Assembly: GCA_017480485.1 (NCBI GenBank)
Contig: JAFVAN010000049.1
Span: forward strand, 1-16,594
Direction of reading: 5' to 3'
DNA: 16,594 nt
Source: Ruminococcus sp.
Lineage (GTDB): Bacteria > Bacillota_A > Clostridia > Oscillospirales > Ruminococcaceae
Made by a program: the position numbers and the translations under genes. Shown here piece by piece: positions 1,609 to 16,594 of the stretch (within the stretch, counting starts at the first letter, position 1; each line of letters starts with the position of its first letter). A model generated the notes under the pieces. The model was not told the DNA's origin. It made no database searches and saw only the letters and a program-made list of their open reading frames with translations.

Positions 1609-1621
1609 GGAGGTGCGCTGA

Positions 1622-2794
1622 TTGAAAGCGGAAAACGCAAAGGGAAACGAAAACAATAAGAGCCGCCGCATCGGCGACCTTCTTACTGCGGGTGTGTTCC
1701 TGCTGTTCGTCTTCGGCATCGGCATCATGACCATTGCCACCAAGGACAGAGAATTCTCCGAGATGGAGAACCGCACCCTCGCCCAGCGCCCCGTGCTCAC
1801 CCTCGAGAGCGTGAAGAAGGGCGAATATACCGACAAGCTGGAGACCTACCTTTCGGATCAGGTGTTCTTAAAGGACCCCTTCGTCTCCATCAAGACCGAC
1901 TTTGACCGCCTGCTGGGAAAGAGCTTCCAGAACGGCGTATACCTCACCCACGACAGCGACGGCAGCCTGCGCTTTTTGCAGCAGTACACCGAAAACCCCG
2001 CCCAGCTGGACGAGAACGTGGACTATATCAACGAGTTCGCCGAGAGCGTGGACATCCCCGTGGACTTCATCCTTGTGCCCAACGCCCAGTGCGCCCTGGC
2101 GGAGCAGCTGCCCTCCTCGGCCCTCTGCGACGACCAGAACAAGAGCTTTGAGCGGGTGGCTCAGCGCCTCAGCGACAGGGTCAATTTCTACCCCATGAAC
2201 ACAGAGGCCGCGGGCCTTGTGGGCAGCGAGAGCGCCTACTACCGCACCGACCACCACTGGACCTCCCTTGGGGCATGGAACGCCGTCAACGCCTACCTTG
2301 CCGCCTCGGGCCAGAAGAATATCCTGCCCGAATATCAGAGCGAGAGCATCCCTGATTTCTACGGCACCCTCTATTCAAAGGCCCCCTCGGCCTTCACCGA
2401 GCCCGACCCCCTGTGGCTCTACACTAACCCCAACGGAGAGTACACCGTTACCTGGCTGCCCGAGGGCAGGACCGCCGACAGCATCATCGACCGCTCCTTC
2501 TTTGAAAAGAAGGACAAGTACGCGGGCTTCCTTGGCGGCAACTTCACTCGGGTGGATATCACCTCAAACAACGAGGGCGAGCGGGTGCTCATCGTCAAGG
2601 ACAGCTACGCCAACGCCGCCATGCAGTTCTTCATCGACCAGTACAGCCGGATCACCATGCTGGATATGCGCTACTACCGTATGCAGCTGCAGACCGTGGC
2701 GGAGCTCTGCGAGGAGATGCAGGCCGACAGGGTCATCCTGCTCTACAACATGGACTTTTTGAACGAGGACAGAAACTTTGTATGGCTGACCTGA
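1622..2794 (+). CDS. DHHW family protein (AlgJ/AlgX-like partner of MBOAT)
   Basis: This 390-residue protein has a basic N-terminus, a single membrane anchor at about residues 18-40, and an extracytoplasmic domain. The family signature TDHHWTSLGA lies at about 209-218, preceded by the common SEMENRTLAQRP juxtamembrane motif (about 46-57) and followed by RVLIVKDSYANAAMQFF. In related SGNH/AlgJ proteins the Asp-His pair belongs to the esterase/acetyltransferase centre, so it probably completes acyl transfer to a surface glycan outside the membrane. I chose the TTG at 1622 because AAGGAGG at 1607-1613 sits 8 bases upstream, inside the end of the MBOAT gene. The 3' end overlaps dusB by 13 bp. The family is secure; the substrate is unknown. 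Confidence 0.9.
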   Translation: MKAENAKGNENNKSRRIGDLLTAGVFLLFVFGIGIMTIATKDREFSEMENRTLAQRPVLTLESVKKGEYTDKLETYLSDQVFLKDPFVSIKTDFDRLLGKSFQNGVYLTHDSDGSLRFLQQYTENPAQLDENVDYINEFAESVDIPVDFILVPNAQCALAEQLPSSALCDDQNKSFERVAQRLSDRVNFYPMNTEAAGLVGSESAYYRTDHHWTSLGAWNAVNAYLAASGQKNILPEYQSESIPDFYGTLYSKAPSAFTEPDPLWLYTNPNGEYTVTWLPEGRTADSIIDRSFFEKKDKYAGFLGGNFTRVDITSNNEGERVLIVKDSYANAAMQFFIDQYSRITMLDMRYYRMQLQTVAELCEEMQADRVILLYNMDFLNEDRNFVWLT

Positions 2795-3774
2795 TAAGCA
2801 TCGGCGGGGTGGAGATAGAGCGCACCGCCGCCCTGGCGCCTATGGCCTCGGTGGCGGACAGGGCCTATCGGCTAATGTGCAGGCGCTTCGGGGCCTCGTA
2901 TCTGGTCAGCGAGATGATCTCTGCCAAGGGGCTTGTCTACGGCGACAAAAAGACCGCCGACCTCTGCCGCATAACGGAAGAGGAGCGCCCCATGGCCCTG
3001 CAGCTCTTTGGCAGCGAGCCCGAGTACATGGCGCGGGCCGTGGAGCTGCTGGCAAAATTTGAACCCGACATAATTGACATAAACATGGGCTGCCCCGTGC
3101 CGAAGGTCGTCCAGACAGGCGCAGGCTCGGCCCTGATGAAGACCCCTGAGACCGCCTTTCTTGTGGCAAAGGCGGCGGTGGACCACGCTCCCTGCCCCGT
3201 GACCGTAAAGATAAGGGCGGGCTGGGGCCCCGAGAGCGTCAACGCCCCCGAGCTTGCAAAGCGCTTGGAGCAGGCGGGCGTCGCGGCCATAGCCGTCCAC
3301 GGCAGGACCCGCAGCCAGTATTATTCCGGGCGGGCCGACCGTGAGGTAATAAGGCAGGTGAAGGCGGCAGTGCGCTGCCCCGTCATTGGCAACGGCGACG
3401 TAAGCTCCGCCGAGGAATGCAGGGAAATGTACGAGCAGACGGGCTGCGACCTTGTAATGATCGGCCGCGGCAGCTACGGCAGGCCTTGGATATTCCGAGA
3501 GGCAGCCCACTACCTCGATACAGGCGAGCTGCTGCCGCCCCCGAGTCTTTCGGAAAAAATGGAGATAATGCTTGAGCACGGCAGGCTTGCCGCAAGCTTC
3601 AAGGGCGAGGCTCAGGCAATGAAGGAGATGCGCCACAACGTTGCGTGGTACGTCAAGGGCCTGCCAGGGGCCGCAAAGATACGCGGCGAGAGCGGCAGCC
3701 TCTGCACTCTTGCAGACCTGGAGCGCATCGCTGACTCTGTCAATGCACAATGCACAATGCACAATGCACAATGA
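2782..3774 (+). CDS. dusB: tRNA-dihydrouridine synthase, DusB/NifR3 type
   Basis: This FMN enzyme reduces uridines in the tRNA D-loop to dihydrouridine using NAD(P)H. The 330-residue protein shows the family landmarks in order: LAPMASVADRAYR at the N-terminus, the catalytic Cys104 in INMGCPVPKV, AVHGRTRSQYYSG, the phosphate-binding GNGDV, and IGRGSYGRPWIF, followed by the C-terminal helical RNA-binding region. The ATG at 2782 lies inside the preceding DHHW gene (13-bp overlap), with only a weak GAGGA at about 2765-2769, so translational coupling is likely. The last ten residues (NAQCTMHNAQ) and the TGA stop are encoded by repeat element A1. The native C-terminus has therefore been replaced or extended. 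The fold should be complete without this tail. Confidence 0.94.
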   Translation: MADLISIGGVEIERTAALAPMASVADRAYRLMCRRFGASYLVSEMISAKGLVYGDKKTADLCRITEEERPMALQLFGSEPEYMARAVELLAKFEPDIIDINMGCPVPKVVQTGAGSALMKTPETAFLVAKAAVDHAPCPVTVKIRAGWGPESVNAPELAKRLEQAGVAAIAVHGRTRSQYYSGRADREVIRQVKAAVRCPVIGNGDVSSAEECREMYEQTGCDLVMIGRGSYGRPWIFREAAHYLDTGELLPPPSLSEKMEIMLEHGRLAASFKGEAQAMKEMRHNVAWYVKGLPGAAKIRGESGSLCTLADLERIADSVNAQCTMHNAQ

Positions 3775-4013
3775 ATGTATCGCCTGCGGCGATGGTTTTT
3801 GCCGCGAAGCGGATAAATTATCAATTCACAATAGTACATACTTTATTATTTGTGCGTTTGGACCTGTATTGTGCTCTCTTCCACCATCTACGACGGCCGA
3901 ATGGCCATAACGTGCGCGCAGCGCACACCATAATTGTGCATTGTGCATTGTGCATTGTGCATTGGAATGCATTGTGCATTGTGCATTGGAATGCATTGTG
4001 CATTGTGCATTGG
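3741..4013. repeat. Interspersed repeat element A, copy 1 (MITE-like, 7-bp-unit terminal inverted repeats)
   Basis: The left end is four AATGCAC units (3742-3769) entered from dusB; the right end is an array of the reverse complement, GTGCATT (about 3933-4013), giving long terminal inverted repeats. The interior carries perfect small hairpins: CGCC-TGC-GGCG at 3781-3791, CCGC-GAA-GCGG at 3802-3812, GGCC-GAAT-GGCC at 3895-3906 and GTGCGC-GCA-GCGCAC at 3912-3926, separated by AT-richer sequence. A second copy lies at 6592-6836, with the block from about 3879 rightwards most conserved. There is no transposase gene inside, so it is non-autonomous. No convincing target-site duplication was found. 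Confidence 0.9.
3933..4013 (+). repeat. Expanded right-end array of element A1 with 24-bp higher-order unit
   Basis: After four GTGCATT units, a 24-bp block beginning ATTGGAATGCATTGTGC occurs twice, then a third block begins. Element A2 has only one comparable variant step (with TAGAA). Because 24 is a multiple of three, the array stays open in frame with the AEC gene and reads as repeated ECIVHCAL. Confidence 0.8.
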
Positions 4014-4020
4014 AAAGGAT
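4014..4020 (+). promoter_or_regulatory. Ribosome binding site deciding the AEC start
   Basis: AAAGGAT lies 5 bases before the ATG at 4025, directly after the end of repeat A1. It supports 4025 over in-frame upstream starts inside the repeat. Confidence 0.65.
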
Positions 4021-4024
4021 AAAA

Positions 4025-4966
4025 ATGGGAAACATCGGCGTGCTGGACGCGGGGCTGCTCATCGGGCGGCAGATAGTTATAATGTTCATCATCCTGGTCA
4101 TCGGCGCGGGATGCTATATGAAGGGGCTCATCACCAAGGAGGGCACCAAGCAGCTCTCGGCTGTTGAGCTGCACCTGATAAACCCCCTGCTGATCTTTAT
4201 GTCCTACCAGACCGAGTACAGCAGCAGGCTGCTAAAGGGGCTGCTGTGGTCCTTCGGGCTGTCGGCTGTTGCCTTCGCACTGGCCATACTCATCTCCACC
4301 CTCGCCGTCCGCCGCGGGCGGGAGGATGCGGCGCTGGAGCGGTTCTCCTCCGTTTATTCCAACTGCGGCTTCATCGGCATACCCCTGATAAACGGCCTCT
4401 TCGGCAGTGAGGGCGTGCTGTACCTTACGGCCTATGTCACCCTCTTCAACCTGCTGGTCTGGACCCACGGGCTGATGCAGATGAAAGGCGAGCGGGACTT
4501 CTCCGCACTGCTGAAGGCCCTGAGGTCTCCCTCGGTGATCGCCGTGTTTCTGGGGCTCATCTGCTATCTGGCGCAGCTGCGGCTGCCTGCGGTGCCCCTC
4601 CAGAGCCTTAGGTACATATCCGACATGAACACTCCCCTTGCAATGATAATCGCCGGGGCCTCCGCCGCCCAGACAAATTTCATCAAGGCCTTCAAAAATT
4701 CGGGGATCTATCTGGTCTGCGCTTTGAAGCTGCTGGTGATACCCCTCATCTGCTGCGCTGTCATAAGCCTTCTCCCCGCTCCGCCGCTGGTGATAACGGT
4801 GGTGTCCATCGCCTGCGCCTGCCCCGTGGCAACAACGGGGACCATGTTTGCCATAATGTTTGACCGCAAGCCCCAGCGCTGCGCCGAATTCTTTGCGGTA
4901 ACAACGGTGCTCAGCGGCCTGACCCTGCCTGTGGTGACCATGGCCGCCTCGGCGCTGGCCGGCTAG
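4025..4966 (+). CDS. AEC family transporter (auxin efflux carrier / malate permease-like)
   Basis: This 313-residue integral membrane protein is hydrophobic from end to end with about ten predicted membrane segments. It has family-typical features: the opening GLLIGRQIVIMFIILVIGAGCYMKGLI, the broken-helix region LHLINPLLIFMSYQ, and YSNCGFIGIPLINGLFG. AEC members export or exchange small organic anions; the substrate here is unknown. The reading frame is open upstream through repeat A1, which would add an MCIVHCAL-type extension, but the Shine-Dalgarno at 4014-4020 and the hydrophobic start favour ATG 4025. The TAG stop lies within the first unit of a 7-bp-period array (4963-5000), so this gene too ends at a repeat. 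Confidence 0.9.
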   Translation: MGNIGVLDAGLLIGRQIVIMFIILVIGAGCYMKGLITKEGTKQLSAVELHLINPLLIFMSYQTEYSSRLLKGLLWSFGLSAVAFALAILISTLAVRRGREDAALERFSSVYSNCGFIGIPLINGLFGSEGVLYLTAYVTLFNLLVWTHGLMQMKGERDFSALLKALRSPSVIAVFLGLICYLAQLRLPAVPLQSLRYISDMNTPLAMIIAGASAAQTNFIKAFKNSGIYLVCALKLLVIPLICCAVISLLPAPPLVITVVSIACACPVATTGTMFAIMFDRKPQRCAEFFAVTTVLSGLTLPVVTMAASALAG

Positions 4967-5000
4967 AGGCTAGAAGTCAGAGACTAGAGGCTAGAAGCGG
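4963..5000. repeat. Short 7-bp-period array related to element B
   Basis: From 4966 the sequence runs as five 7-bp units, GAGGCTA, GAAGTCA, GAGACTA, GAGGCTA and GAAGCGG, matching the GAGGTTA-type units at the ends of element B (15201-15321). No opposite arm lies nearby, so this looks like a solo end or a decayed copy. The AEC stop codon overlaps its start. Confidence 0.75.
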
Positions 5001-5031
5001 GAAAGCTGCTTAACGAAAGGATAAGTTAAAA

Positions 5032-5982
5032 ATGAATTACTGCTTTGCGGATTTTGAATTTACCTGCGGGTATCAGATCACAAGGAACAAAAGCGAGGTG
5101 CTGTCGGTGGGGCTGGTGCTCTGTGACGAGCACTTTGAGCTGCTTGGCACCTTCTACCGCACCGCCTGCCCCAACAGGTACCCCAAGCTCACAAAGCAGT
5201 GCGTCACCCTGACGAAGCTGGATCAGGACGAGATATACCGCTCTCCCGACAGCGACGCCGTCATGGCAGAGGCGCTGCGCCTGCTGGACAGCTTTGACAT
5301 CGAGCACATCTGCGTCTGGGGCAACTTTGACATCCCGGGGCTGGAGGCGGACATCCTACAGCACAAGCGCCTGCACCGAGGCAGCGGCAACGTCCGGCGG
5401 GTCTGCGACATGGTAAGCGACATCCAGGCGGACCTGACCCGAAAGATGGAGCTTCCTCAGGCCGTGAACATCAAGGAGCTGGCCTCGGCCTTCGGCTACG
5501 TCCCCGAGCAGGGCACCTTCCACAACGCCCTCAACGACGCCATGGCCCTCTACACCGTCTGCAAGGCGGTGCTCACCACGGACTTCCACAGCTGCGAGGG
5601 CTTCAACGAGATGAAGCGCCTGCGGGAGGAAAAGATAGAGGCCGAGCGCCGGGCCGCCGAGGAGCGTCGCCTGCTGATACAGCGCAAATACCCCTTCTCG
5701 GAGGAGGAGCGCCGCCTGATAGACGACCTGAAGCAGAAGCACGAGGGGCGTCGGGTGCAGGACTATATGCGCCTGCGCAGCCGCATAATCACGGCCTTCG
5801 AGAGCTACCCCGAGGAGGAGCAGTTCTACGCCCTCACCTTCCCCGCCCGAAAGATCGAATACAAGGTGCTCACCGAGGAGCAGTACACCCAGAAAAACTA
5901 CCCCAAGAACGTGGAGGTGCGCCTTGTAGAGCGCCTGCCCAAGGACGACAAGGTATACATACGCATTGAGCGGAATTTGTAA
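5032..5982 (+). CDS. DEDDh-type 3'-5' exonuclease (RNase T / DnaQ fold)
   Basis: This 316-residue protein has an N-terminal exonuclease domain (about 1-185) with all acidic motifs: D7-x-E9 in ADFEFT, D100 in VWGNFD, and H164-N-A-L-N-D169, the HxAxxD of the DEDDh subclass. It should remove 3' nucleotides from RNA or DNA with two metal ions. The remaining C-terminal part (about 190-316) is a charged, probably helical segment rich in Glu/Arg (RLREEKIEAERRAAEERR), then a small domain I do not recognise. It resembles the KapD/ERI1-like exonucleases of Firmicutes; the natural substrate is uncertain. The ATG at 5032 follows AAAGGA at 5016-5021. A family C repeat begins three bases after the stop. 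Confidence 0.87.
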   Translation: MNYCFADFEFTCGYQITRNKSEVLSVGLVLCDEHFELLGTFYRTACPNRYPKLTKQCVTLTKLDQDEIYRSPDSDAVMAEALRLLDSFDIEHICVWGNFDIPGLEADILQHKRLHRGSGNVRRVCDMVSDIQADLTRKMELPQAVNIKELASAFGYVPEQGTFHNALNDAMALYTVCKAVLTTDFHSCEGFNEMKRLREEKIEAERRAAEERRLLIQRKYPFSEEERRLIDDLKQKHEGRRVQDYMRLRSRIITAFESYPEEEQFYALTFPARKIEYKVLTEEQYTQKNYPKNVEVRLVERLPKDDKVYIRIERNL

Positions 5983-5984
5983 GG

Positions 5985-6131
5985 ATCCCTCCGTCACGCC
6001 TCGCGTGTCGCCTCCTATGGTTGCTTTGATACCATATTCATGGGAGGTTCTGGAGTGGTCACACATGGTTTTTTGTTTACGCTCAACGGCCTCCCCTGAA
6101 AGGGGAGGTGCCCCGAAGGGGCGGAGGGGTT
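5985..6131. repeat. Family C repeat pair in inverted orientation (147 bp, no gene inside)
   Basis: The right part (6089-6131) is a full family C unit: hairpin CCTCCCC-TGAAA-GGGGAGG (6090-6108), second hairpin GCCCC-GAA-GGGGC (6110-6122), then CGGAGGGGTT. The left part (5985 to about 6047) is the same unit reversed and diverged: CCCTCCG, CACGC-CTC-GCGTG at about 5994-6006, then CCTCC and GGGAGG arms whose loop has grown to hold a TATGGT/ACCATA inverted repeat. The arrangement, reversed copy then forward copy, is the same as around the DUF559 gene at 10775-11354. Confidence 0.75.
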
Positions 6132-6138
6132 ATACAGG

Positions 6139-6144
6139 AAGGAG
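6139..6144 (+). promoter_or_regulatory. Ribosome binding site deciding the Nudix start
   Basis: AAGGAG, 7 bases before the ATG at 6152 and just downstream of the family C repeat. It rejects an in-frame start at 5966, which would translate the repeat. Confidence 0.75.
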
Positions 6145-6151
6145 CAGGAAA

Positions 6152-6625
6152 ATGTCTGACGGCTACATAATGGACCTGCGGAAGGTCGTGGGACACCGCA
6201 CCCTGATACAGGCGGCGGCCAGCGTTATCATCATGGACCGCGAGGGTCGGGTGCTGCTGGGAAAAAGGTCCGACAACGGCTTCTGGGGCTACTCGGGAGG
6301 CTCGCTGGAGATAGACGAGCGGGTGGAGGACTGCGCCCGCCGAGAGCTGCTGGAGGAGATGGGCCTGACTGCAAATAGCCTTGAATTCTTCATGGTGAAC
6401 TCGGGGCCCGAGGCCCACTACGTCTACCCCAACGGCGACGAGGTCTCGAACGTTGAGATCATCTACCTCTGCCGCGACTACAGCGGCGAGCCCCGCATGG
6501 CGGACGGCGAGATGACAGAGCTAAGGTTTTTCAGCCTCGACGACCTGCCGCCGATCTCGCCCCCCATCCGCCCGGCGATGGAGAGGCTTGTCAATGCACA
6601 ATTCACAATGCACAATGCACAATGA
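6152..6625 (+). CDS. Nudix hydrolase
   Basis: This 157-residue cytosolic protein hydrolyses a nucleoside diphosphate linked to another moiety. The Nudix box is a perfect match to Gx5Ex7REUxEExGU: Gly50, Glu56, Arg64-Glu65, Glu68-Glu69, Gly71. The substrate could be ADP-ribose, a coenzyme or a damaged nucleotide; the sequence does not decide, and a MutT assignment would be overreach. The strong AAGGAG site fixes the ATG at 6152, although the frame is open to 5966 through the upstream repeat. The last ten residues (NAQFTMHNAQ) and the TGA stop come from repeat element A2, exactly as in dusB and in the same phase. The recognisable fold ends before the tail at about residue 147. Confidence 0.92.
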   Translation: MSDGYIMDLRKVVGHRTLIQAAASVIIMDREGRVLLGKRSDNGFWGYSGGSLEIDERVEDCARRELLEEMGLTANSLEFFMVNSGPEAHYVYPNGDEVSNVEIIYLCRDYSGEPRMADGEMTELRFFSLDDLPPISPPIRPAMERLVNAQFTMHNAQ

Positions 6626-6836
6626 ATGTGCCGCCTGCGGCGGGATCTTGCCGCGAAGCGGGTAAATTTGCAATGCACTATCGTGCTTATTTTTCATTTG
6701 TGCGTTTGAGCCTGAATTGTACTCTCTTCCACCATCTACGACGGCCGAATGGCCATAATGTGCGCGCAGCGCACACCATAATTGTGCATTGTGCATTGTG
6801 CATTGTGCATTAGAATGCATTGTGCATTGTGCATTG
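6592..6836. repeat. Interspersed repeat element A, copy 2
   Basis: This is the second copy of the element at 3741-4013, same orientation. The left array is AATGCAC units with one AATTCAC variant (6593-6620); the right array is GTGCATT units (about 6781-6836). Internal hairpins are conserved as structures: CCGCC-TGC-GGCGG at 6631-6643, CCGC-GAA-GCGG at 6651-6661, GGCC-GAAT-GGCC at about 6744-6755 and GTGCGC-GCA-GCGCAC at 6760-6774. The stretch from about 6724 to 6810 is nearly identical to copy 1, while the AT-rich middle has diverged. Confidence 0.9.
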
Positions 6837-6842
6837 AAAAAA

Positions 6843-6848
6843 CGGAGG
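6843..6848 (+). promoter_or_regulatory. Ribosome binding site deciding the tex start
   Basis: CGGAGG, 8 bases before the ATG at 6857 and just outside repeat A2. It supports 6857 over the in-frame TTG at 6782 inside the repeat. Confidence 0.8.
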
Positions 6849-6856
6849 AAAATAAC

Positions 6857-8998
<2,142 letters not shown>

Positions 8999-9338
8999 AA
9001 CCCGAACTCGCCGGAATCCAAGGGGCGGCGTTAGCCCCTTGGCAGGGTCTTTAGGGGCAGAGCCCCTAAATCGCCGACCGCAGTCGGCGAAACCCCTTTA
9101 AGTTGCGGCACCGCCGCAATAAGGCGCTGCACCAAGACACAGTAGTGCGGCTATCCCAAAGACCCGCTCTATCCCGAGTGGAGCCACCAAATGCAGCGCC
9201 GAGAAATGTCCCCTCCCGCACTCTCAGGAAAGAGCGAAGCGATTTTCCGTGCGTAGAACAGCGAGTTTCCGGCTTGTTTTTGTGCGCTTGATCAAGCATT
9301 AAAATCTATAAACCCATCAGAAAGGAGAAAACATAACT
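8999..9338. repeat. 340-bp gene-less stretch with clustered hairpins, probable repeat remnant
   Basis: No supported gene lies here. The first 120 bases hold four hairpins in a row: AAGGGGC/GCCCCTT (about 9020-9041), TAGGGGC-AGA-GCCCCTA (about 9052-9068), CGCCGAC-CGCA-GTCGGCG (9072-9089) and TTGCGGC-ACC-GCCGCAA (about 9103-9119). None has a T-tract, so none is a clear intrinsic terminator. The remainder to about 9290 is open on both strands over 60-77 codons but lacks a ribosome site or recognisable domain. I suspect an interspersed element; a genome search would settle it. The gltX Shine-Dalgarno AAAGGAG is at 9321-9327. Confidence 0.5.
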
Positions 9339-10775
9339 ATGACCAGAACACGATTTGCGCCGAGCCCCACGGGCTATATGCACGTCGGGAACCTGCGCAC
9401 CGCCCTCTATGCCTACCTTACCGCAAGGCACGACGGCGGAAAATTCATCCTGAGGATAGAGGACACGGACCGCGAGCGCTATGTTGAGGGCGCGGTGGAC
9501 GTGATCTATAACACCCTGAAGGAAAACGGCATGACATGGGACGAGGGCCCCGATGTGGGCGGCGACTTCGGCCCCTATGTACAGAGCGAGAGGATGGGGA
9601 TGTTCAAGGGCTACGCCGAGGAGCTGGTGGAAAAGGGCATGGCCTACCGCTGCTTCTGCACCGAGGAGCGCCTTGCAGAGCTGCACGAGCAGCAGAAGGC
9701 CGCCGGAGAAGCCGTTGGACACTACGACAGGCGCTGCCGCTGCCTCTCCTGCGAGGAGATACAGAAGCACCTTGACGCGGGGGACCCCTACGTCATCCGC
9801 CAGAAGATGCCCACCGAGGGCGTCACGGCCTTCGACGACATCATCTACGGCCACATCGAAGTGCAGAACGCCGAGCTGGAGGACCAGATACTGATCAAGA
9901 CCGACGGGATGCCTACCTATAACTTTGCAAACGTGGTGGACGACCACCTGATGCAGATAAGCCACGTTATCCGCGGCTCCGAGTATCTTTCCAGCACCCC
10001 CAAGTATCAGCTGCTTTATCAGGCCTTTGGCTGGCAGGTGCCTGTGTACATCCACTGCCCGCCTGTAATGAAGGACGAGCACAACAAGCTCTCGAAGCGC
10101 AACGGCGACGCCAGCTATCAGGACCTTGTGGCTCAGGGGTATCTCAGTGAGGCGGTGCTAAACTACCTGCTGCTGCTGGGCTGGAGCCCCAAGGGCGAGG
10201 AGGAGATCTTCTCCCTTGCGGACATGATAAGCATCTGGGACCCCGCAAGGATAAACAAGTCCCCCGCCATCTTTGATATCGTCAAGCTGCGGGCCATCAA
10301 CGCCGCCCACATCAGCCGTATGTCGGACGAGGAGTTCACCAGGGCCGCAGAGCCATGGATAAGGAAGGTAGTGCAGAGCGACATCGACCTTGACCTGCTG
10401 TGCCGCAACCTGAAGCCCCGGTGCGAGATACTCAGCGACATCCCCGAGCGGGTGGCCTTCATCGACAATATGCCCGAGGCCATCGACCCCGAGCTTTACA
10501 AAAACAAGAAGTTCAAGACCGACGCTGACACCGCCCTCACGGCCCTGAAAGCCCTCGAGCCCGCCCTGACGGCCGTCACCGACTGGACCAAGGACAATAT
10601 CTACGAGGCCTGCCTCACCGTGGCAGGACAGCTGGAGGTCAAGAACGGCTGGCTGCTCTATCCCCTGGGTATCGCCCTTTCGGGCCAGCGCTCAACCCCC
10701 GGCGGCGGCACGGACATCGCGGCCATCATCGGAAGGGAGAAGACCCTCGAGAGGGTGAGAAGGGCTATTGGCTGA
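9339..10775 (+). CDS. gltX: Glutamyl-tRNA synthetase
   Basis: This class I aminoacyl-tRNA synthetase charges tRNA with glutamate. The 478-residue protein has the HIGH-type motif HVGN at 15-18 in FAPSPTGYMHVGNLRTAL, the KMSKS-type motif KLSKR at 250-254, and the conserved LRIEDTDRER. A probable zinc-binding set in the insertion domain is C105-x-C107 with C133/C135/C138. A helical anticodon-binding domain completes the C-terminus. Length is normal. Without a recognised asparaginyl/glutaminyl pathway gene here, I cannot tell whether it is strict for tRNA-Glu or also charges tRNA-Gln, as is common in Firmicutes. The ATG at 9339 follows AAAGGAG (9321-9327) by 11 bases. The final A of the TGA stop is also the first base of the inverted family C repeat. 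Confidence 0.96.
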   Translation: MTRTRFAPSPTGYMHVGNLRTALYAYLTARHDGGKFILRIEDTDRERYVEGAVDVIYNTLKENGMTWDEGPDVGGDFGPYVQSERMGMFKGYAEELVEKGMAYRCFCTEERLAELHEQQKAAGEAVGHYDRRCRCLSCEEIQKHLDAGDPYVIRQKMPTEGVTAFDDIIYGHIEVQNAELEDQILIKTDGMPTYNFANVVDDHLMQISHVIRGSEYLSSTPKYQLLYQAFGWQVPVYIHCPPVMKDEHNKLSKRNGDASYQDLVAQGYLSEAVLNYLLLLGWSPKGEEEIFSLADMISIWDPARINKSPAIFDIVKLRAINAAHISRMSDEEFTRAAEPWIRKVVQSDIDLDLLCRNLKPRCEILSDIPERVAFIDNMPEAIDPELYKNKKFKTDADTALTALKALEPALTAVTDWTKDNIYEACLTVAGQLEVKNGWLLYPLGIALSGQRSTPGGGTDIAAIIGREKTLERVRRAIG

Positions 10776-10823
10776 ACCCCTCCGACTTGCCTTCGGCAAG
10801 CCACCTCCCCTTTCAGGGGAGGC
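10775..10823 (-). repeat. Family C repeat, inverted copy left of DUF559
   Basis: It reads AACCCCTCCG, then hairpin CTTGCC-TTC-GGCAAG (10786-10800), then hairpin CCTCCCC-TTTCA-GGGGAGG (10804-10822). Its reverse complement aligns with the forward copies at 6089-6131 and 11308-11354. Confidence 0.88.
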
Positions 10824-10922
10824 AAAGTCCTGACCGCACGCCCCGTTGTTACACTTTTTATCACAAAAACCACGGCCCATCTGTCATAATGTTCAGAGCG
10901 ACAAGCTCAATGGTATTGCAAT

Positions 10923-11318
10923 ATGGAGAAAGAGCTGTTCACAGGATATAATAAAAAGCTAACAGAGTCAGCTAAAGAATTAAGGAAGAACATGACAAAG
11001 CAAGAGAGAAAGCTTTGGTATGAATTTCTTGTGTCTTATCCTGTGAAATTCTACCGTCAGAGGCCAATAGATAAGTATATTGCTGATTTCTACTGTTCAA
11101 AGGCGAAGCTTGTAATTGAATTAGACGGCTCTCAGCATTATACTGAGGAAGGCTTGGAGTACGACAGCATACGAACAGAAATACTTGAGCTCTACGGATT
11201 GAAAGTTATTCGGTTCAGAAATTACGAGATCGAGCATGATTTCGATGCAGTCTGCAAAAAGATCGATCATTATTGCAAGCAGCAAATTGAGCGGTCAGCA
11301 GCTAAAAGCCTCCCCTGA
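10923..11318 (+). CDS. DUF559 family endonuclease-like protein
   Basis: This 131-residue protein matches the DUF559 (Vsr-/PD-(D/E)XK-like) pattern: RKNMTKQERKLWYEFL, VKFYRQRPIDKYIADFYC, LVIELDGSQH and LKVIRFRNYEI. Candidate catalytic residues are Asp55, Glu66, Asp68 and His72. Family members are predicted DNA endonucleases; their role is not established. The gene is clearly AT-richer than its neighbours and has no obvious Shine-Dalgarno before the ATG at 10923, which suggests acquired or weakly expressed DNA. The last four residues (KSLP) and the TGA stop lie inside the right-hand family C hairpin, the stop falling in its loop. Flanking inverted repeats make it a candidate component of a repeat-mobilising or repeat-targeting unit. 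Family confident, function inferred. Confidence 0.87.
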   Translation: MEKELFTGYNKKLTESAKELRKNMTKQERKLWYEFLVSYPVKFYRQRPIDKYIADFYCSKAKLVIELDGSQHYTEEGLEYDSIRTEILELYGLKVIRFRNYEIEHDFDAVCKKIDHYCKQQIERSAAKSLP

Positions 11319-11354
11319 AAGGGGAGGTGGCACGCGAAGCGTGACGGAGGGGTT
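11308..11354 (+). repeat. Family C repeat, forward copy right of DUF559
   Basis: Hairpin CCTCCCC-TGAAA-GGGGAGG at 11309-11327, hairpin CACGC-GAA-GCGTG at 11331-11343, then CGGAGGGGTT to 11354. It supplies the DUF559 stop codon. Confidence 0.9.
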
Positions 11355-11377
11355 TACAAAAAATTAATATTCCCCCA

Positions 11378-11406
11378 TTGACAAAAGCACCACAGTTGAG
11401 TATAAT
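11378..11406 (+). promoter_or_regulatory. Sigma-A-type promoter of ohrR
   Basis: TTGACA at 11378-11383 and TATAAT at 11401-11406, both perfect consensus, are separated by exactly 17 bp. This is the best promoter in the window and drives ohrR. Confidence 0.9.
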
Positions 11407-11430
11407 TAAATTGTACACAATTTGATTTTG
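11401..11430. promoter_or_regulatory. Probable OhrR operator overlapping the -10 box
   Basis: The core AAATTGTACACAATTT (11408-11423) is an AAATTG/CAATTT inverted repeat, flanked on the left by another AATT half-site within the -10 region. The arrangement resembles the AT-rich, ACAATT/AAATTGT operators known for Bacillus OhrR. Placement over the -10 and start site predicts repression of its own gene. Confidence 0.75.
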
Positions 11431-11441
11431 CGGAGGGGAAT

Positions 11442-11897
11442 ATGGATAACGAGAACAACACAGGCGGCGCCTATGACTGCCTGAAGATCGAGAACCAGCT
11501 GTGCTTCCCGCTTTACGCCGCCTCTAAGGAGGTAATAAAGCGCTACAGGCCGTTCCTCGACAAGCTGGAGCTCACCTACACTCAGTATCTGGCCATGATG
11601 GTCTTCTGGGAGCAGAAGAGCATAAGCGTCAAGGAGCTGGGGCAGAAGCTCTATCTGGACAGCGGCACGCTTACACCCGTGCTAAAGCATCTGGAACAAA
11701 AGGAGTACATCACCCGCAGCCGCAGCCGCGAGGACGAGCGGGTGCTGGTGGCAGAGATAACCGAAAAGGGAGAGCGCCTGCGGGACAAGGCCGTAGAGGT
11801 GCCCGCGCAGATGGCCTGCTGCATAAGGCTGGAGCCCCAGGAGGCCGCAGAGCTCTACCGGCTGCTCTATAAGCTGCTGGGGAATTTTGAAGGATAG
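11442..11897 (+). CDS. ohrR: MarR-family organic peroxide sensor OhrR
   Basis: This 151-residue winged-helix dimeric repressor shows the OhrR signature at its N-terminus, KIENQLCFPLYAASKE, with the peroxide-reactive cysteine at Cys21 (equivalent to Bacillus Cys15), then LDKLELTYTQYLAMMVFWE. The DNA-recognition helix region is SVKELGQKLYLDSGTLTPVLKHLEQKEYI and the wing is RSREDERVL. Oxidation of the cysteine by organic hydroperoxides should release it from DNA. The ATG at 11442 follows CGGAGGGG (11431-11438). A consensus promoter overlapped by an OhrR-like operator predicts autoregulation. The usual partner, the peroxidase gene ohr, is absent: thrS follows after 250 bp of repeats. Only one cysteine occurs in the N-terminal region, suggesting the one-Cys sensing type. 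Confidence 0.93.
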   Translation: MDNENNTGGAYDCLKIENQLCFPLYAASKEVIKRYRPFLDKLELTYTQYLAMMVFWEQKSISVKELGQKLYLDSGTLTPVLKHLEQKEYITRSRSREDERVLVAEITEKGERLRDKAVEVPAQMACCIRLEPQEAAELYRLLYKLLGNFEG

Positions 11898-11898
11898 G

Positions 11899-12037
11899 CT
11901 TTCCGCCCCCCCGAGGAGCAAAGGCAAGACCAAGTATAAAAAACCGGCGGAAAAATGGTGACCGCACGGCAGAGGAGAAATATATTTTCCGCCCCCGAGA
12001 GCGAGGGCAGACCCAAGCATAAAAATCGGCGGAAAAT
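11899..12037. repeat. Family D tandem repeats (two copies) between ohrR and thrS
   Basis: Two about 50-bp units each begin TTTCCGCC and end GGCGGAAA, forming inverted-repeat arms: 11900-11907 with 11946-11953, and 11984-11993 with 12028-12037 (a perfect 10-bp pair ATTTTCCGCC/GGCGGAAAAT). Between the arms both have a GAG, GGCA and ATAAAAA pattern. A related, truncated copy lies downstream of thrS (about 14041-14100). Confidence 0.75.
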
Positions 12038-12073
12038 GGTATCTCCCCCCCCCGCAGGGGAGAATACCTTTTT
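12038..12073 (+). terminator. Probable intrinsic terminator after ohrR
   Basis: GGTAT-CTCCCC pairs with GGGGAG-AATACC (one bulged base) around a C-rich loop, followed directly by TTTTT. It fits a Rho-independent terminator separating ohrR from thrS, although it is 140 bp past the ohrR stop and may be part of family D. T-box antitermination was considered and not supported. Confidence 0.6.
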
Positions 12074-12086
12074 CCGCACACCCCGA

Positions 12087-12101
12087 GCCGCCGCAGGCGG
12101 C
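12087..12101. repeat. Perfect GNA-loop hairpin GCCGCC-GCA-GGCGGC
   Basis: A 6-bp stem with a three-base GCA loop, 48 bp before the thrS start. It has the same design as hairpins inside elements A, B and C. Confidence 0.7.
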
Positions 12102-12134
12102 GAGGGAAATAAACCGAGAAGAAACAAATAATGT

Positions 12135-12140
12135 TAGGAG
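12135..12140 (+). promoter_or_regulatory. Ribosome binding site deciding the thrS start
   Basis: TAGGAG, 8 bases before the ATG at 12149. It lies downstream of the alternative in-frame ATG at 12131, which has no such site. Confidence 0.75.
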
Positions 12141-12148
12141 TAAAGAAC

Positions 12149-13945
12149 ATGGACAAGGAATTTTTTAACGAGGTATACCGCCACTCGCTGGCTCACGTCA
12201 TGGCAAAGGCCGTGATCGAACTCTACGGCAAGGAGGTGCAGTACGCCATAGGCCCCCAGATATCGGACGGCTTCTACTACGACTTCCTGCTGCCCGAGAA
12301 CGTTAAGATATCTACCGAGGACTTCCCGAAGATCGAGCAGAAGATGAAGGAGATAATGAAGCGGGGCGAAAGCTGGACAAGGCGCGAGATATCCAAGGCC
12401 GAGGGCCTGGAGATATTCAAGGATCAGGAGTTCAAGAAGCGCATAATCAGCGACCTGCCCGAGGACGCCGTCATCACCACCTACAACACAGGCGACGACT
12501 TCATCGACCTCTGCCGCGGACCTCACGTTGACAATTCCCGAGAGCTGCTTTCGGCAGCCTTCGAGCTCAGGGCCGTTTCCGGCGCCTACTGGCGGGGCGA
12601 CGAAAGACAGGAGAGCCTCACAAGGCTCTATGCCTACGCCTTTACCGATAAGAACGCCCTCAAGGCCCACAAGGCCCTCATCAAGGAGGCCATGGAGCGG
12701 GACCACAAGAAGCTTGGCCCCCAGCTGGACCTCTTCATGTTCAACGAGACCGCTCAGGGAATGCCCTACTGGCTGCCCCGCGGCTGGAAGCTCTTCAACA
12801 CCCTGCTGGATTATTGGAGAGGCATCCACGAGGTACACGGCTACCACGAGATCTCGGCACCTATCATCAATAACAAGAAGCTCTGGCTCATCTCGGGCCA
12901 CTGGGCTCATTATGTGAACAATATGTTCATCTTCCCCGGCGAGGACGGCACCATCGAGGCCCCCGACACCATGGCCGCCAAGCCCATGAACTGCCCCAAC
13001 GCCATGCTGACCTACAAGCGGAAGGTACACTCCTACCGCGACCTGCCCATCCGCCTCTCGGAGACGGACGTGGTGCACCGCAAGGAAAAGACGGGCCAGC
13101 TCAACGGCCTCTTCCGCGTCCAGATGTTCAGGCAGGACGACGACCACACCTTTGTGATGGAAAGCCAGATCGAGAACGAGATAGATGACATCCTCTCCAT
13201 CGCCGACGAGATCTACTCCACCTTCGGCCTTACCTACCGCGCCGAGCTCTCTACCCGCCCCGAGGACTTCATGGGAGACATCGAGCTCTGGAACGACGCC
13301 GAGGCCGCCCTCAAGCGCATTCTGGACAAGAAATACGGCGAGGGCAACTACGAGATAAACGAGGGCGACGGAGCCTTCTACGGCCCGAAGATAGACCTTC
13401 AGATCAAAGACGCCCTGGGCCGCGAGTGGCAGTGCGGCACCGTTCAGCTGGACTTCCAGCTGCCCCGCAACTTTGAGCTGAGCTACAAGGCCAGCGACGG
13501 CACCGACAAGATACCCGTTGTCATCCACCGCGCCATCTTCGGCTCCCTCGAGCGCTTCATAGGCATCATTATCGAGAACTTCAAGGGCGCCTTCCCCTTC
13601 TGGCTGTCGCCCTATCAGGTGGGCATCGTGCCCATCAGGCCCGAGCATAACGAGTACGCCCAAAAGGTAGCTTCGCTGCTTGCCAAGAACCACATCCGCT
13701 TCGAGGCCGACTACGCCGACAAGAACATGAAGGAAAAGATCAAGTACTTCAAGACCTACAAGACCCCCTACACCATCGTCCTCGGCGACCGCGAGGCGGC
13801 GGAGAACACGGTCTCCATAAACATCCGCGGCACCGCAAAGCAGCTGCAGAACGTGCCTCTTGACAAGTTTATCGAGCTGTGCCGCACCATGAACGACGAG
13901 CACTCCCTTGAGCTCATCACAGAGCTGGACGAGGCCGCCAAATGA
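12149..13945 (+). CDS. thrS: Threonyl-tRNA synthetase, short form lacking the TGS domain
   Basis: This class II synthetase charges tRNA-Thr. At 598 residues it is shorter than the usual about 640, because it starts directly at the editing domain and lacks the N-terminal TGS domain. The editing site is intact: H12/H16 in YRHSLAH and C122/H126 in DLCRGPH. The catalytic core keeps the three zinc ligands, C282 in KPMNCP, H333 in RQDDDHTF and H460 in VVIHRAIFGSLERF, with motif 2 as VVHRKEKTG. Unusual changes near the active site are NCPNA for the common NCPGH and QLNGL for the common LHGL. A C-terminal anticodon-binding domain is present (VGIVPIRPEHNEYAQKVASLL...). The upstream frame is closed before 12131, so TGS is not hidden by start choice. 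No T-box leader was recognised. Confidence 0.94.
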   Translation: MDKEFFNEVYRHSLAHVMAKAVIELYGKEVQYAIGPQISDGFYYDFLLPENVKISTEDFPKIEQKMKEIMKRGESWTRREISKAEGLEIFKDQEFKKRIISDLPEDAVITTYNTGDDFIDLCRGPHVDNSRELLSAAFELRAVSGAYWRGDERQESLTRLYAYAFTDKNALKAHKALIKEAMERDHKKLGPQLDLFMFNETAQGMPYWLPRGWKLFNTLLDYWRGIHEVHGYHEISAPIINNKKLWLISGHWAHYVNNMFIFPGEDGTIEAPDTMAAKPMNCPNAMLTYKRKVHSYRDLPIRLSETDVVHRKEKTGQLNGLFRVQMFRQDDDHTFVMESQIENEIDDILSIADEIYSTFGLTYRAELSTRPEDFMGDIELWNDAEAALKRILDKKYGEGNYEINEGDGAFYGPKIDLQIKDALGREWQCGTVQLDFQLPRNFELSYKASDGTDKIPVVIHRAIFGSLERFIGIIIENFKGAFPFWLSPYQVGIVPIRPEHNEYAQKVASLLAKNHIRFEADYADKNMKEKIKYFKTYKTPYTIVLGDREAAENTVSINIRGTAKQLQNVPLDKFIELCRTMNDEHSLELITELDEAAK

Positions 13946-13966
13946 TAAAATGTCCATAATCACTGC

Positions 13967-13996
13967 CATGTGTATCCCGCCCCCGGGGTACACATG
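13967..13996. repeat. Strong hairpin downstream of thrS
   Basis: CATGTGTA pairs with TACACATG, extended inward by CCC/GGG around a short C-rich loop. No T-tract follows. It may limit read-through or protect the thrS mRNA 3' end; the role is unknown. Confidence 0.6.
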
Positions 13997-14040
13997 CTCT
14001 GTATATGGAGAAATATTTGACTATTTGCATACGACCACGA

Positions 14041-14110
14041 CCCCGAAGACGAGCGAAAACTCGGCGGAACAATGGTATATCTCCCCCCGTACCGCGAGGG
14101 AGCCCGTGCG
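14041..14110. repeat. Truncated family D copy between thrS and the radical SAM gene
   Basis: The CGGCGGAACAATGGTATATCTCC stretch region (14062-14084) parallels the right end of the second D unit and the following terminator stem at 12027-12048. The left TTCCGCC arm is missing. The remainder to 14121 holds nothing else recognised. Confidence 0.5.
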
Positions 14111-14121
14111 CGCCAGCACAT

Positions 14122-14128
14122 GAGGTGA
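14122..14128 (+). promoter_or_regulatory. Ribosome binding site deciding the radical SAM start
   Basis: GAGGTGA, 5 bases before the ATG at 14134. The in-frame opening to 14005 would translate the family D remnant and is not supported. Confidence 0.8.
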
Positions 14129-14133
14129 TTTTT

Positions 14134-15216
14134 ATGTTTGACATCCAAGAATACATGGCAGAGGGCGTGGAGCGCATCGTCTCCGAGGCGCTGAAGGCCA
14201 CGCTTTCAAACCCAAGAGAGAGCGCCTTTATGCTCAGCTTTGCGGCGGCCTCGAGACGGGCCACCAAGCTTCGGAAAAAGCAGGAGGCCGAGGGAATGCA
14301 CGTCCCGCCCTTCCTCATCGCCAGCATAACCTCCAGCTGCAACCTGCACTGCGCGGGCTGCTACGCCAGAGCCAACAGTATCTGCTCCGACGAGGCCCCT
14401 GCCAAGCAGCTCTCGGCAGAGGAGTGGGGAGAGATCTTCTCTCAGGCACAGGACATGGGCATAAGCTTTATCCTGCTGGCGGGGGGCGAGCCCTGCCTGC
14501 GGCGGGACGTCATCACAGCGGCAGGAGGCTGCAAGAACATCCTCTTCCCCATCTTCACCAACGGCACCTTCCTGGACGAGAAGTATTTTGACCTGCTGGA
14601 CCGCTGCCGCAACCTTGTGCCTATCATGAGCATCGAGGGCGGCCGCGAGACCACCGACGCCCGCAGAGGCAGCGGCGTCTACGACAGGCTGGAGAAAAAC
14701 ATGGAGCGCCTGCGCTCGGAGGGGCTCATCTTCGGCGCCTCGGTAACGGTGACGAAGGAAAATCTGTCAGAGGTCACGGACACCGCCTTCACCGACAGCC
14801 TTGCAAAAAAGGGCTGCAAGGCCGTGATCTACGTTGAATACGTCCCCACCGACGGCAGCAGCGGCCTTGCCCCGGACGACAGCGACCGAGAGCGCCTTGC
14901 CTCCGCCATCGAGGCCCTGCGAAAGCGCACCGATATGCTCTACATCTCCTTCCCCGGGGACGAAAAGAGCTCCGGCGGCTGCCTTGCGGCGGGCAGAGGC
15001 TTCTTCCACATCAACCCCTCGGGCGGCGCCGAGCCCTGCCCCTTCTCCCCCTTCTCGGACATAAACGTCAGGGACGTGAAGCTCTCGGGCGCCCTCCAAA
15101 GCAGTCTTTTCACCCTCATCAACGCGGGCGGCCTGCTGAACGACGACCACGAGGGCGGCTGCGTGCTCTATGAAAAGCGCCGCGAAGTCGAGGCGCTTTT
15201 AGAGGTTAGAGGTTAG
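14134..15216 (+). CDS. Radical SAM protein of unknown specificity
   Basis: This 360-residue protein carries the radical SAM iron-sulfur motif C69-x3-C73-x2-C76 in SSCNLHCAGCYARAN, the glycine-rich SAM-binding motif LLAGGEPCLRRDV, and the downstream FTNGTFLDEKYFDLL and PIMSIEGG strands of the barrel. The C-terminal third has further cysteines (GGCLAAGRGFF, GAEPCPFSPF, EGGCVLYEKR) in a SPASM-like pattern that could bind an auxiliary cluster. An N-terminal helix of about 55 residues precedes the barrel. No peptide substrate, protease or exporter is adjacent, so a RiPP role is not supported by context. The last residues (EVRG) and the TAG stop are encoded by the 7-bp units of element B. The ATG at 14134 is set by GAGGTGA. 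Confidence 0.88.
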   Translation: MFDIQEYMAEGVERIVSEALKATLSNPRESAFMLSFAAASRRATKLRKKQEAEGMHVPPFLIASITSSCNLHCAGCYARANSICSDEAPAKQLSAEEWGEIFSQAQDMGISFILLAGGEPCLRRDVITAAGGCKNILFPIFTNGTFLDEKYFDLLDRCRNLVPIMSIEGGRETTDARRGSGVYDRLEKNMERLRSEGLIFGASVTVTKENLSEVTDTAFTDSLAKKGCKAVIYVEYVPTDGSSGLAPDDSDRERLASAIEALRKRTDMLYISFPGDEKSSGGCLAAGRGFFHINPSGGAEPCPFSPFSDINVRDVKLSGALQSSLFTLINAGGLLNDDHEGGCVLYEKRREVEALLEVRG

Positions 15217-15321
15217 AAGATTTTTAGAGATAGGAAGATCTTAGAGGCTGGAAAATCGTCCGCGCAGCGGACAAATATTTCGCCGAAGGCGCACCGTGTC
15301 TAACCTCTCACCTCTGACCTC
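15201..15321. repeat. Interspersed repeat element B (7-bp-unit inverted termini)
   Basis: The left end consists of GAGGTTA units starting at 15202; the right end (15299-15321), read in reverse complement, is GAGGTCA, GAGGTGA, GAGGTTA. Inside are two hairpins, GTCCGC-GCA-GCGGAC (15258-15272) and CGCC-GAA-GGCG (15281-15291). It is about 120 bp with no coding capacity of its own. It supplies the end of the radical SAM gene and stops about 28 bp before the CDF Shine-Dalgarno. Confidence 0.85.
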
Positions 15322-15361
15322 TTTCGCACAGAATTAAGAAACAACAAACGAGGTAGTAACA

Positions 15362-16465
15362 ATGGACAGAACAAAGGAAATAGTAAAGGTCAGCTACAAG
15401 GGCATCGCAGTCAATGTGCTGCTGGTGGTGTTCAAGGCCATCGTGGGCTTTGCGGCGGGGTCCATCTCCGTCATTCTGGACGCCGTTAACAACCTGAGCG
15501 ACGCCCTGTCCTCGGTGATAACCATCGTCGGGACGAAGCTGGCAGGCCGCGGCCCCGACAGAGAGCACCCCTACGGCCACGGCAGGATAGAATACATCAC
15601 CTCTCTGGTGATAGCCCTCATCGTGCTGATAGCGGGCGTTACCTCCCTGCGGGAGGCCGTCGGAAAGATGATCAAGCCCACAGCGGCAGAGTTCACGGTG
15701 GTGTCTGTCATCATCATCGCGGCAGGTGTGCTGGTGAAGTTCTTCCTTGGGCGCTACTTCTCGGCAATGGGCAAGAAGCTTGACTCGGGCTCCCTCAAGG
15801 CCTCGGGCAAGGACGCCTCCTTCGACGCCGTCATCTCCTCGGCTACGCTGGTGTCGGCAATAATCACCATGACTCTGGGCCTGAACATCGAGGGCTGGCT
15901 GGGCGCCGTCATCTCCCTGTTCATCATCAAGGCGGGCATCGAGATAATCACCGAGACGCTGGACAACATCATCGGCGTGCGCACGGACAAGGAGCTCTCC
16001 ACGGGCATCAAGGAGCGGATAAACTCCTTCCCCCAGGTCCACGGCAGCCACGACCTGATACTCCACAGCTACGGCCCCTCGGAGACTCTGGGCTCGGTAC
16101 ACATCGAGGTAGACGACAGCATGACCGCCGCCCAGATCGACGAGCTGAGCCGCTGCCTCACGGCGGAGGTGTACAAGGAATACTCGGTTTACCTGACCAT
16201 CGGCATCTACGCCACCAACACCTCGGACGAGGTGAGCTCCCGCATCCGCCAGCGCCTGACTGAGCTTGTGAAGGCTGACCCGCTGATAATCGAGATGCAC
16301 GGCTTTTACGTTGACAAGGATAAGCAGACCGTGACCTTCGACCTGATCTACAGCTACGACGAGAAGGACCCAAGGGCGGCCGTCGAGCGCCTGCGCACCA
16401 CCCTGACAAAGGAATTCCCGGGCTTCACCTTCTTCCCGAATTTGGACCGGGATTTCAGCGATTAA
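15362..16465 (+). CDS. Cation diffusion facilitator transporter, Mn-type (MntE-like)
   Basis: This 367-residue membrane exporter of divalent cations has six predicted membrane helices followed by a cytoplasmic domain. Metal-site motifs are N43-x3-D47 in DAVNNLSDALSS (helix 2) and D151-x3-D155 in KDASFDAVISS (helix 5). NxxxD/DxxxD is typical of manganese-type CDFs, whereas zinc members usually have His in the first motif. HPYGHGRIEYI and VHGSHDLILHSYGP are also present. The C-terminal extension beyond the short cytoplasmic domain (about 290-367) ends in FTFFPNLDRDFSD, found in a Firmicute subgroup. GAGG at 15350-15353 precedes the ATG by 8 bases. It exports metal, probably Mn2+, with proton exchange; specificity is inferred from motifs only. 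It is monocistronic here. Confidence 0.91.
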   Translation: MDRTKEIVKVSYKGIAVNVLLVVFKAIVGFAAGSISVILDAVNNLSDALSSVITIVGTKLAGRGPDREHPYGHGRIEYITSLVIALIVLIAGVTSLREAVGKMIKPTAAEFTVVSVIIIAAGVLVKFFLGRYFSAMGKKLDSGSLKASGKDASFDAVISSATLVSAIITMTLGLNIEGWLGAVISLFIIKAGIEIITETLDNIIGVRTDKELSTGIKERINSFPQVHGSHDLILHSYGPSETLGSVHIEVDDSMTAAQIDELSRCLTAEVYKEYSVYLTIGIYATNTSDEVSSRIRQRLTELVKADPLIIEMHGFYVDKDKQTVTFDLIYSYDEKDPRAAVERLRTTLTKEFPGFTFFPNLDRDFSD

Positions 16466-16479
16466 TTCTGCTCGGTGGC

Positions 16480-16576
16480 AGATAATATCTTTATAGATAA
16501 TATCTTTATAGATAATATCTCTTAATAATATAAATATAAATAATATCTTATAGATAATATCTTATAGATAATATCT
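16480..16576. repeat. AT-rich array of near-palindromic 11-mers (AGATAATATCT)
   Basis: Copies start at 16480, 16495 and 16510 (15-bp period), then 16538 (degenerate), 16552 and 16566 (14-bp period). Each is an AGATA/TATCT inverted repeat around one base. The array lies just after the CDF gene and may continue past the window. It could be a protein-binding iteron array, a slippage-prone satellite or part of the next gene's control region. Confidence 0.8.
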
Positions 16577-16594
16577 ATGATATAATAATTATGA

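Follow-up and report, generated by a model that had tools for sequence, protein, structure and literature searches.

Heptamer arrays and GNA-loop hairpins of gene-less repeats in a Ruminococcus contig and their probable link to S23 protein genes

What kind of element are the short intergenic repeats of Ruminococcus sp. contig JAFVAN010000049.1 (assembly GCA_017480485.1), and what reads their ends? The window analyzed here, positions 1 to 16,594 of the forward strand and 16,594 nucleotides in all, carries repeat families designated A to D, for which a sequence-only reading proposed a design shared without shared sequence, namely termini of 7-bp units and hairpins closed by three-base GNA loops, served by one machinery that reads structure. 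We arrive at a different division. A and B, which have no gene and resemble miniature inverted-repeat transposable elements (MITEs), probably belong with small mobile elements that have heptamer ends, a family in which gene-bearing members encode a PF05635 protein (S23, the 23S rRNA intervening-sequence protein, annotated as "four helix bundle protein") and S23 would help insertion; C belongs with another gene family.

Two copies of A, neither containing a gene, were delimited on the plus strand by an array scan. A1 (3741..4012) has a left array at 3741-3775, a right array at 3937-3964 and further right arrays at 3968-3988 and 3992-4012, while A2 (6592..6836) has a left array at 6592-6626, a right array at 6785-6812 and a further right array at 6816-6836; at the borders of both copies, the inverted AATGCAC arrays are fully complementary over 25-26 nt. 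Between its arrays, A1 holds a left outer hairpin (3779..3793, minus strand, stem 6) whose loop TGC is GCA on the outward-running minus strand, a second left hairpin (3802..3812, plus strand, stem 4, loop GAA), a core palindrome, GGCCGAATGGCC (3895..3906), read from the sequence, whose type (GCCCATTCGGGC) recurs in other copies, and a right outer hairpin (3912..3926, plus strand, stem 6, loop GCA). A2 has the corresponding left outer hairpin (6631..6643, loop TGC, GCA on the minus strand), second left hairpin (6651..6661, plus strand, loop GAA) and right outer hairpin (6759..6775, plus strand, stem 7, loop GCA). Element B (15199..15322, plus strand, no gene) is bordered by shorter, degenerate GAGGTNA arrays, the left of GAGGTTA type at 15199-15217 with degenerate units after it and the right inverted at 15299-15322, and contains plus-strand hairpins at 15258..15272 (stem 6, loop GCA) and, adjoining the right array, at 15281..15291 (outer hairpin, stem 4, loop GAA). 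A solo 7-bp array of CTAGAGG/CTAGAAG units lies at 4963..5000 on the plus strand. The 7-bp inverted termini proposed for A and B and the period of the solo array were thus all seen, with the proviso that the automatic scan of B gave its left array only, and that its right array, like the solo one, was identified by eye. The A and B copies of the window contain no PF05635 open reading frame (ORF), are flanked by protein ORFs and lie outside any 23S rRNA gene; in Rfam, there were no window matches above the gathering score.

The link to PF05635 comes from relatives of A. The nearest species (L001, Ruminococcus sp. RGIG6795, hereafter G001) is 82% identical in the protein encoded downstream of A2 and yielded 103 matches to A, as against one to four weak matches in five of the other 11 genomes and none in six. 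Its A copies have the same heptamer as the window copies, and the fetched loci resolve into 14 distinct paired elements, of which one bears a gene and 13 do not; further single arrays are also present, several of them at contig ends. In the gene-bearing copy (L129), which sits between ORFs read by eye as grpE and dnaK, a PF05635 ORF (E 9e-30, also matching TIGR02436 "four helix bundle protein") lies between heptamers of the window-A kind.

The layout of A, found in A1 and in the G001 copies, recurs with another heptamer in a second genome, G125, where a TAACAGG-type array was matched 90 times in forward and 111 times in reverse orientation (each overlapping match inside an array entering the count separately) and the control not at all. 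Thirty loci among these 201 matches resolve into 10 distinct paired elements, and four PF05635 matches occur in the genome. The gene-less elements of G125 have an array and an outer hairpin at one end and a second outer hairpin and the inverted array at the other; in between, a variable middle is flanked on one side or on both by a GCCCATTCGGGC-type palindrome. This is the layout of A. Since the two agree in layout and core and differ in heptamer, layout and core are separable from the heptamer letters. The idea of a shared design without shared sequence therefore stands in part: the layout is kept, the stems covary (see below) and the heptamers differ, but core motifs of the GCCCATTCGGGC type are common to elements with different heptamers.

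Is seven a special period, and does it go with this gene? In 1.27 Mb made up of the window and 80 related loci, the latter collected via a protein whose gene lies downstream of A2, there were 24 arrays and seven inverted pairs of period 7, five of the pairs being located in the window. No inverted pair was formed by the 23 and 21 arrays of periods 5 and 6 or by the three arrays of periods 8-13, and at period 4 there were 228 arrays and 10 inverted pairs. We then asked, with the unit letters ignored, whether an inverted array pair spans the PF05635 ORF at 104 loci, composed of a family set (25 of 30 fetched loci, the fragments L168, L169, L170, L176 and L177 being excluded), a phylum set (70 loci, 30 of them fetched and 40 taken by place, from a longer list that also included fragments, weak matches and some full-length matches) and a plasmid set (nine read among 25 S23-bearing records). 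Inverted period-7 arrays lie across the ORF in 34 of the 104 loci (11/25 family, 17/70 phylum and 6/9 plasmid), with diverse units, whereas they lie across none of 1318 control ORFs and across 2 of 58 other ORFs within the S23 loci; at periods 5, 6 and 8-12, no inverted pair spans a PF05635 ORF in the 104 loci. The 68 arrays of the 34 positive loci have about five units in 28 cases and about four in 22. A looser test of inverted flanks was positive for PF05635 in 58/103, for PF13366 in 7/17, for DUF559 in 6/21 and for controls in 15/1318. The 7-bp period thus exceeds chance and recurs in other copies as far as the A copies of G001 and inverted pairs are concerned; heptamer ends belong to A, B and the solo array, and C is without 7-bp units.

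The nine plasmid records come from Bacillota, Spirochaetota, Cyanobacteriota (five), Bacteroidota and Chloroflexota. By eye, 7-bp units stand on both sides of the S23 gene in all nine, those of L211 not being clearly inverted; the six that pass the strict inverted test belong to Spirochaetota, Cyanobacteriota and Chloroflexota, while for Bacillota the passing loci come from the genome sets. In the annotated plasmids, the S23 genes are surrounded by protein genes and occupy, for example, the gap between cas2 and cas1 (L210), the gap between hsdS and hsdR (L204) and the interior of a DNA methyltransferase gene (L209).

All 12 GNA-loop hairpins listed in the sequence-only reading proved to be perfect stems with three-base GNA or complementary loops. 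Among three-base-loop hairpins with a stem of at least 5, GNA/TNC loops account for 11 of 15 inside A, B and C (942 bases) versus 3 of 30 elsewhere in the window and 49 of 285 in the intergenic DNA of L002-L080 (0.59 per kb, counted without runs of N), so the supposed excess over other intergenic DNA was borne out. We examined 81 distinct array ends, gene-bearing copies included (seven from the window, 34 from G001 and 40 from G125, for which L153 and L172 were added to the paired elements). Read from core to array, an outer hairpin is present at 65 of them, with GNA loops in 33, GNNA in 14, TNC in one and others in 17; the loop rule C-G(N)NA-G is kept in 47 of the 65, and the closing pair is C-G in 60. 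For G001 alone, the 34 ends comprise 19 with a GNA hairpin, six with a different loop and nine with none. Because stem length and spacing vary between ends, base pairing was tested with the loop motif C-G(N/NN)A-G as anchor. This motif lies near 28 of 42 array ends of G001 and the window and near 29 of 39 of G125, and four or five of the five outer pairs form at 25/28 and 25/29 of these motif ends, respectively, versus 499 of 20783 control sites. In 22 distinct triloop hairpins, preselected for at least four of five pairs, the covariation score was 0.788 versus 0.191 in shuffles, and cells changed on both sides numbered 44 versus 16.0.

Tetraloops of the type d(cGNNAg) are stable in DNA. GNA minihairpins of DNA have been described as extraordinarily stable (Hirao 1994 and Yoshizawa 1997, as cited in PMC6479982), and this favors a DNA substrate, with RNA also possible; recognition on single-stranded DNA is a plausible extension. 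Hairpins on single-stranded DNA call to mind repetitive extragenic palindromic (REP) sequences and REPINs, and the strand-specific loops do resemble the reading of REP hairpins by TnpA-REP as described in PMC8266576. That our repeats are of this kind, moved by a Y1 transposase of the IS200/IS605 type or of the REP-associated tyrosine transposase (RAYT) type, is nevertheless very improbable in our estimate, since PF01797 matches occur in 2 of 12 genomes and G001, rich in copies, has none, its absence from a draft metagenome-assembled genome (MAG) not being final. On this ground, a Y1 transposase was rejected as the mover.

If A-like elements are mobile, related genomes should differ in their presence, and matching sites without the insert, as anticipated, were found in congeners and related plasmids. 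The S23 element of G125 lies 3' of a stop codon and 5' of AGGAGC, a sequence resembling a ribosome-binding site, and at the same place the congener G556 has 6-8 bases, depending on the alignment cut, instead of about 497. The site of a gene-less element of G125, followed through seven genomes of the genus, is filled in G558, partly filled in G561 and empty in G556 and G559; another heptamer element starts there in G557, and the right side is unaligned in G560. Between G125 and G558, the interior of this element (L368 1502-1699, L416 540-806) is inverted, 140 of 142 aligned bases (98.6%) matching as reverse complement (score 114 versus 20 forward), with 22 extra bases in G558, and the flanks are less similar than the interior (89% and 86% identical). 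We read the inverted interior as the apparent outcome of recent movement or conversion, with inversion at the arrays. In two cyanobacterial pairs, whose junctions were compared with separate blastn pieces, about 61 and 328 bp present at the empty site are missing from the filled one.

The same sites bear on the view that arrays and hairpins are immobile sites kept by the host for regulation or RNA processing, such as terminators, RNase III targets or translation control. The copies are intergenic, one has a terminator-like hairpin between genes, heptamers of Beggiatoaceae have been proposed to act in translational control (PMC4679880), and the S23p intervening sequence of Coxiella is excised by RNase III (PMC4990558). 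Host-kept sites would nevertheless hardly vary in presence at matching places among congeners, interrupt a methyltransferase gene, as one copy does, or fail to keep their heptamer letters between species, and we therefore think this view quite improbable.

Several results weigh against a family of mobile elements served by S23: (i) the strict array test is failed by 70 of the 104 PF05635 loci and the looser one by 45 of 103, some loci have arrays or hairpin rows upstream only, and units of 11 bp flank the genes in L240, L250 and L253 (by eye); (ii) under the rule applied, an outer hairpin is missing from 16 of the 81 array ends, and 18 of the 65 hairpins have other loops; (iii) two of the five covariation measures do not exceed the shuffles (pairs changed on both sides, 5 versus 4.2; further pair types, 10 versus 9.3), and copies of one genome are related, so that counts are not independent; (iv) no target-site duplication is visible at three filled/empty junctions, some target bases being missing instead, and movement itself was never observed; and (v) the heptamer letters are only weakly tied to how similar the S23 proteins are (Mantel rho 0.136, p 0.006), so that a simple, conserved reading of the letters does not fit. 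Strict coevolution of S23 and heptamer was considered and rejected in view of this weak tie. The last point would also suit an origin of the arrays by replication slippage, in which heptamers, seven being favored in bacteria, gather at hairpins and the S23 genes are cargo or bystanders. Slippage, though, would not invert the same unit around one gene family (34/104) yet around none of the control ORFs (0/1318), would not give strand-specific loops with covarying stems and would not give presence or absence of a whole insert, and we regard it as unlikely.

Returning to elements inserted with the help of S23, we propose the following working. Each end would consist of an array of usually four or five heptamers, the two arrays being mutually inverted, and on the outward-running strand each array would typically come after a hairpin whose loop is of the C-G(N)NA-G kind; the heptamer letters vary by species and element, with period, inverted layout and loop rule kept. 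The hairpins would fold once the DNA is single stranded, and a protein of the S23 homopentamer family would bind the array, perhaps with one subunit per heptamer, and aid insertion of its own element and, in trans, of gene-less copies, often at gene borders. We infer that S23 is the mover of the elements and single-stranded DNA its substrate. The only PDB sequence relative found, 2rld, has five chains, and in the homologue Xcc0516 five four-helix bundles make up the assembly, the family being homologous to Avd (PMC10053308, PMC4990558). Arrays of four or five units that accompany a pentamer suggest that one S23 subunit may dock per heptamer, and since the unit letters tie only weakly to protein similarity, period or shape, and not letters, would be what is read.

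Among the closest known systems is the intervening sequence (IVS) of 23S rRNA genes in Coxiella, Leptospira and others, which shares with the gene-bearing relatives a PF05635-type ORF and complementary ends; that of Coxiella has tandem GACAGAT heptamers before the S23p ORF and a 28-bp terminal stem (PMC4990558). The elements described here differ: they sit in or between protein genes, combine C-G(N)NA-G hairpins with inverted heptamer arrays across several phyla and include many gene-less copies. Earlier ideas relayed in PMC4990558 (Ralph and McClelland 1993) have IVSs as remnants of transposition or as mobile elements whose ORF serves mobility. Many-copy intergenic tandem 7-mers also make up the bacterial heptamer repeats (TAACTGA in Beggiatoaceae, Cyanobacteria and Bacteroidetes; Geobacter), but these are direct and possibly regulatory as described in the available text of PMC4679880 and PMC2700814, whereas here the arrays pair in inverted orientation with an S23 gene between them. 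REP/REPIN sequences with RAYT resemble ours in their high-copy, strand-specific hairpins and in gene-less copies for which a gene at another locus works (PMC8266576, PMC3116915); they differ from ours, which end in heptamer arrays and are associated with PF05635, and no Y1 gene match was found in G001, a draft MAG. MITEs are likewise short, gene-less and present in several copies with inverted ends, but at our three junctions no target duplication was seen, and a search for PF01797 alone identified no parent transposase of the usual kinds. PF05635 proteins belong to the same family and fold as Avd, the factor of diversity-generating retroelements (PMC10053308). Searches confined to open-licence literature listed no paper in which S23 genes and their heptamer arrays are treated as mobile elements across a genome.

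Does one machinery serve all the repeats of the window? It does not appear to, as heptamer elements go with PF05635 and C with DUF559, 7-bp arrays being absent from the flanks of all 22 DUF559 ORFs sampled (small ORFs from 53 fetched loci, with fragments, weaker matches and long ORFs excluded). C1 (5987..6131, plus strand, no gene) has the ends CCCTCCGTC and GCGGAGGGGTT and GAA-loop hairpins at 6090-6108 and 6110-6122. Elsewhere, a DUF559 (PF04480) ORF (10923..11318, plus strand, E 1e-32) lies between two inverted C repeats, one upstream at 10775..10823 on the minus strand (hairpins 10786-10800 and 10804-10822, loops TTC, GAA on the minus strand) and one downstream at 11308..11354 on the plus strand (hairpins 11309-11327 and 11331-11343, loops GAA). 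Of 11 small DUF559 ORFs from the family, 10 have C-like repeats next to them by eye, and for five of these 12-19 bases recur on the two sides as exact inverted copies. Relative to the gene, C is oriented differently in the window and in L185. When C repeats were collected with the hairpin region left free, 17 were obtained from 8 of 148 genomes, all 17 forming a stem there (by eye), with loops GAA in five, GCA, GACA and GCTA in one each and AAA in two, and, in one genome only, TTC in three, TTCA in two and TTTA in two. C forms a different, parallel class, located next to DUF559 nuclease genes; its loops obey a similar rule, and heptamers are absent. PF13366 (GxxExxY), meant as a control and represented by 17 of 29 listed places, also has inverted flanks (7/17), without 7-bp pairs; inverted flanks alone are therefore not special to S23. 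In L284, L285, L286, L292 and L293, GxxExxY genes lie between repeats of CACGGAG, CACCAAG or CACAGATTA type, and such loci may form a third class of small-gene element.

Some further features were noted. The ORFs upstream of A1 and A2 extend into the heptamer array (window 3740-3774 and 6590-6625) and finish in the near-identical tails VNAQCTMHNAQ and VNAQFTMHNAQ, which suggests that the A insertions replaced gene 3' ends. Repeat D, of TTTTCCGCC...CGGCGGAAAATGGT type, occurs at 11901-11960, 11986-12041 and about 14036-14080, with GNA hairpins adjoining at 12050-12060 and 12087-12101, and a tandem run of ATAATATCTTATAG-like repeats closes the window (16480-16594). Among the PF05635 loci, rows of hairpins with GNA/TNC loops precede the gene in L159, L161, L164, L173, L174 and L179 (by eye), several of them spaced by ATGATG-like words and apparently just 3' of tRNA genes, a second arrangement of S23 genes.

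Beyond A and B, it is conceivable, though in our judgement the balance of probability is against it, that these are cross-phylum mobile elements with no known recombinase gene, whose ends are read by period and by hairpin shape on single-stranded DNA, and not by letters, whose sole gene product, a pentameric S23/Avd-type protein, docks with one subunit on each heptamer, and of which IVSs and many heptamer repeats are special cases. For PF05635, a widespread "four helix bundle protein" of no known function, the findings would offer a role that can be tested, and they would link the hitherto separate puzzles of heptamer repeats, of intervening sequences in 23S rRNA and of hairpin repeats that lack genes. 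A repeat family that keeps period, layout and loop type while its letters change would make recognition by shape directly testable.

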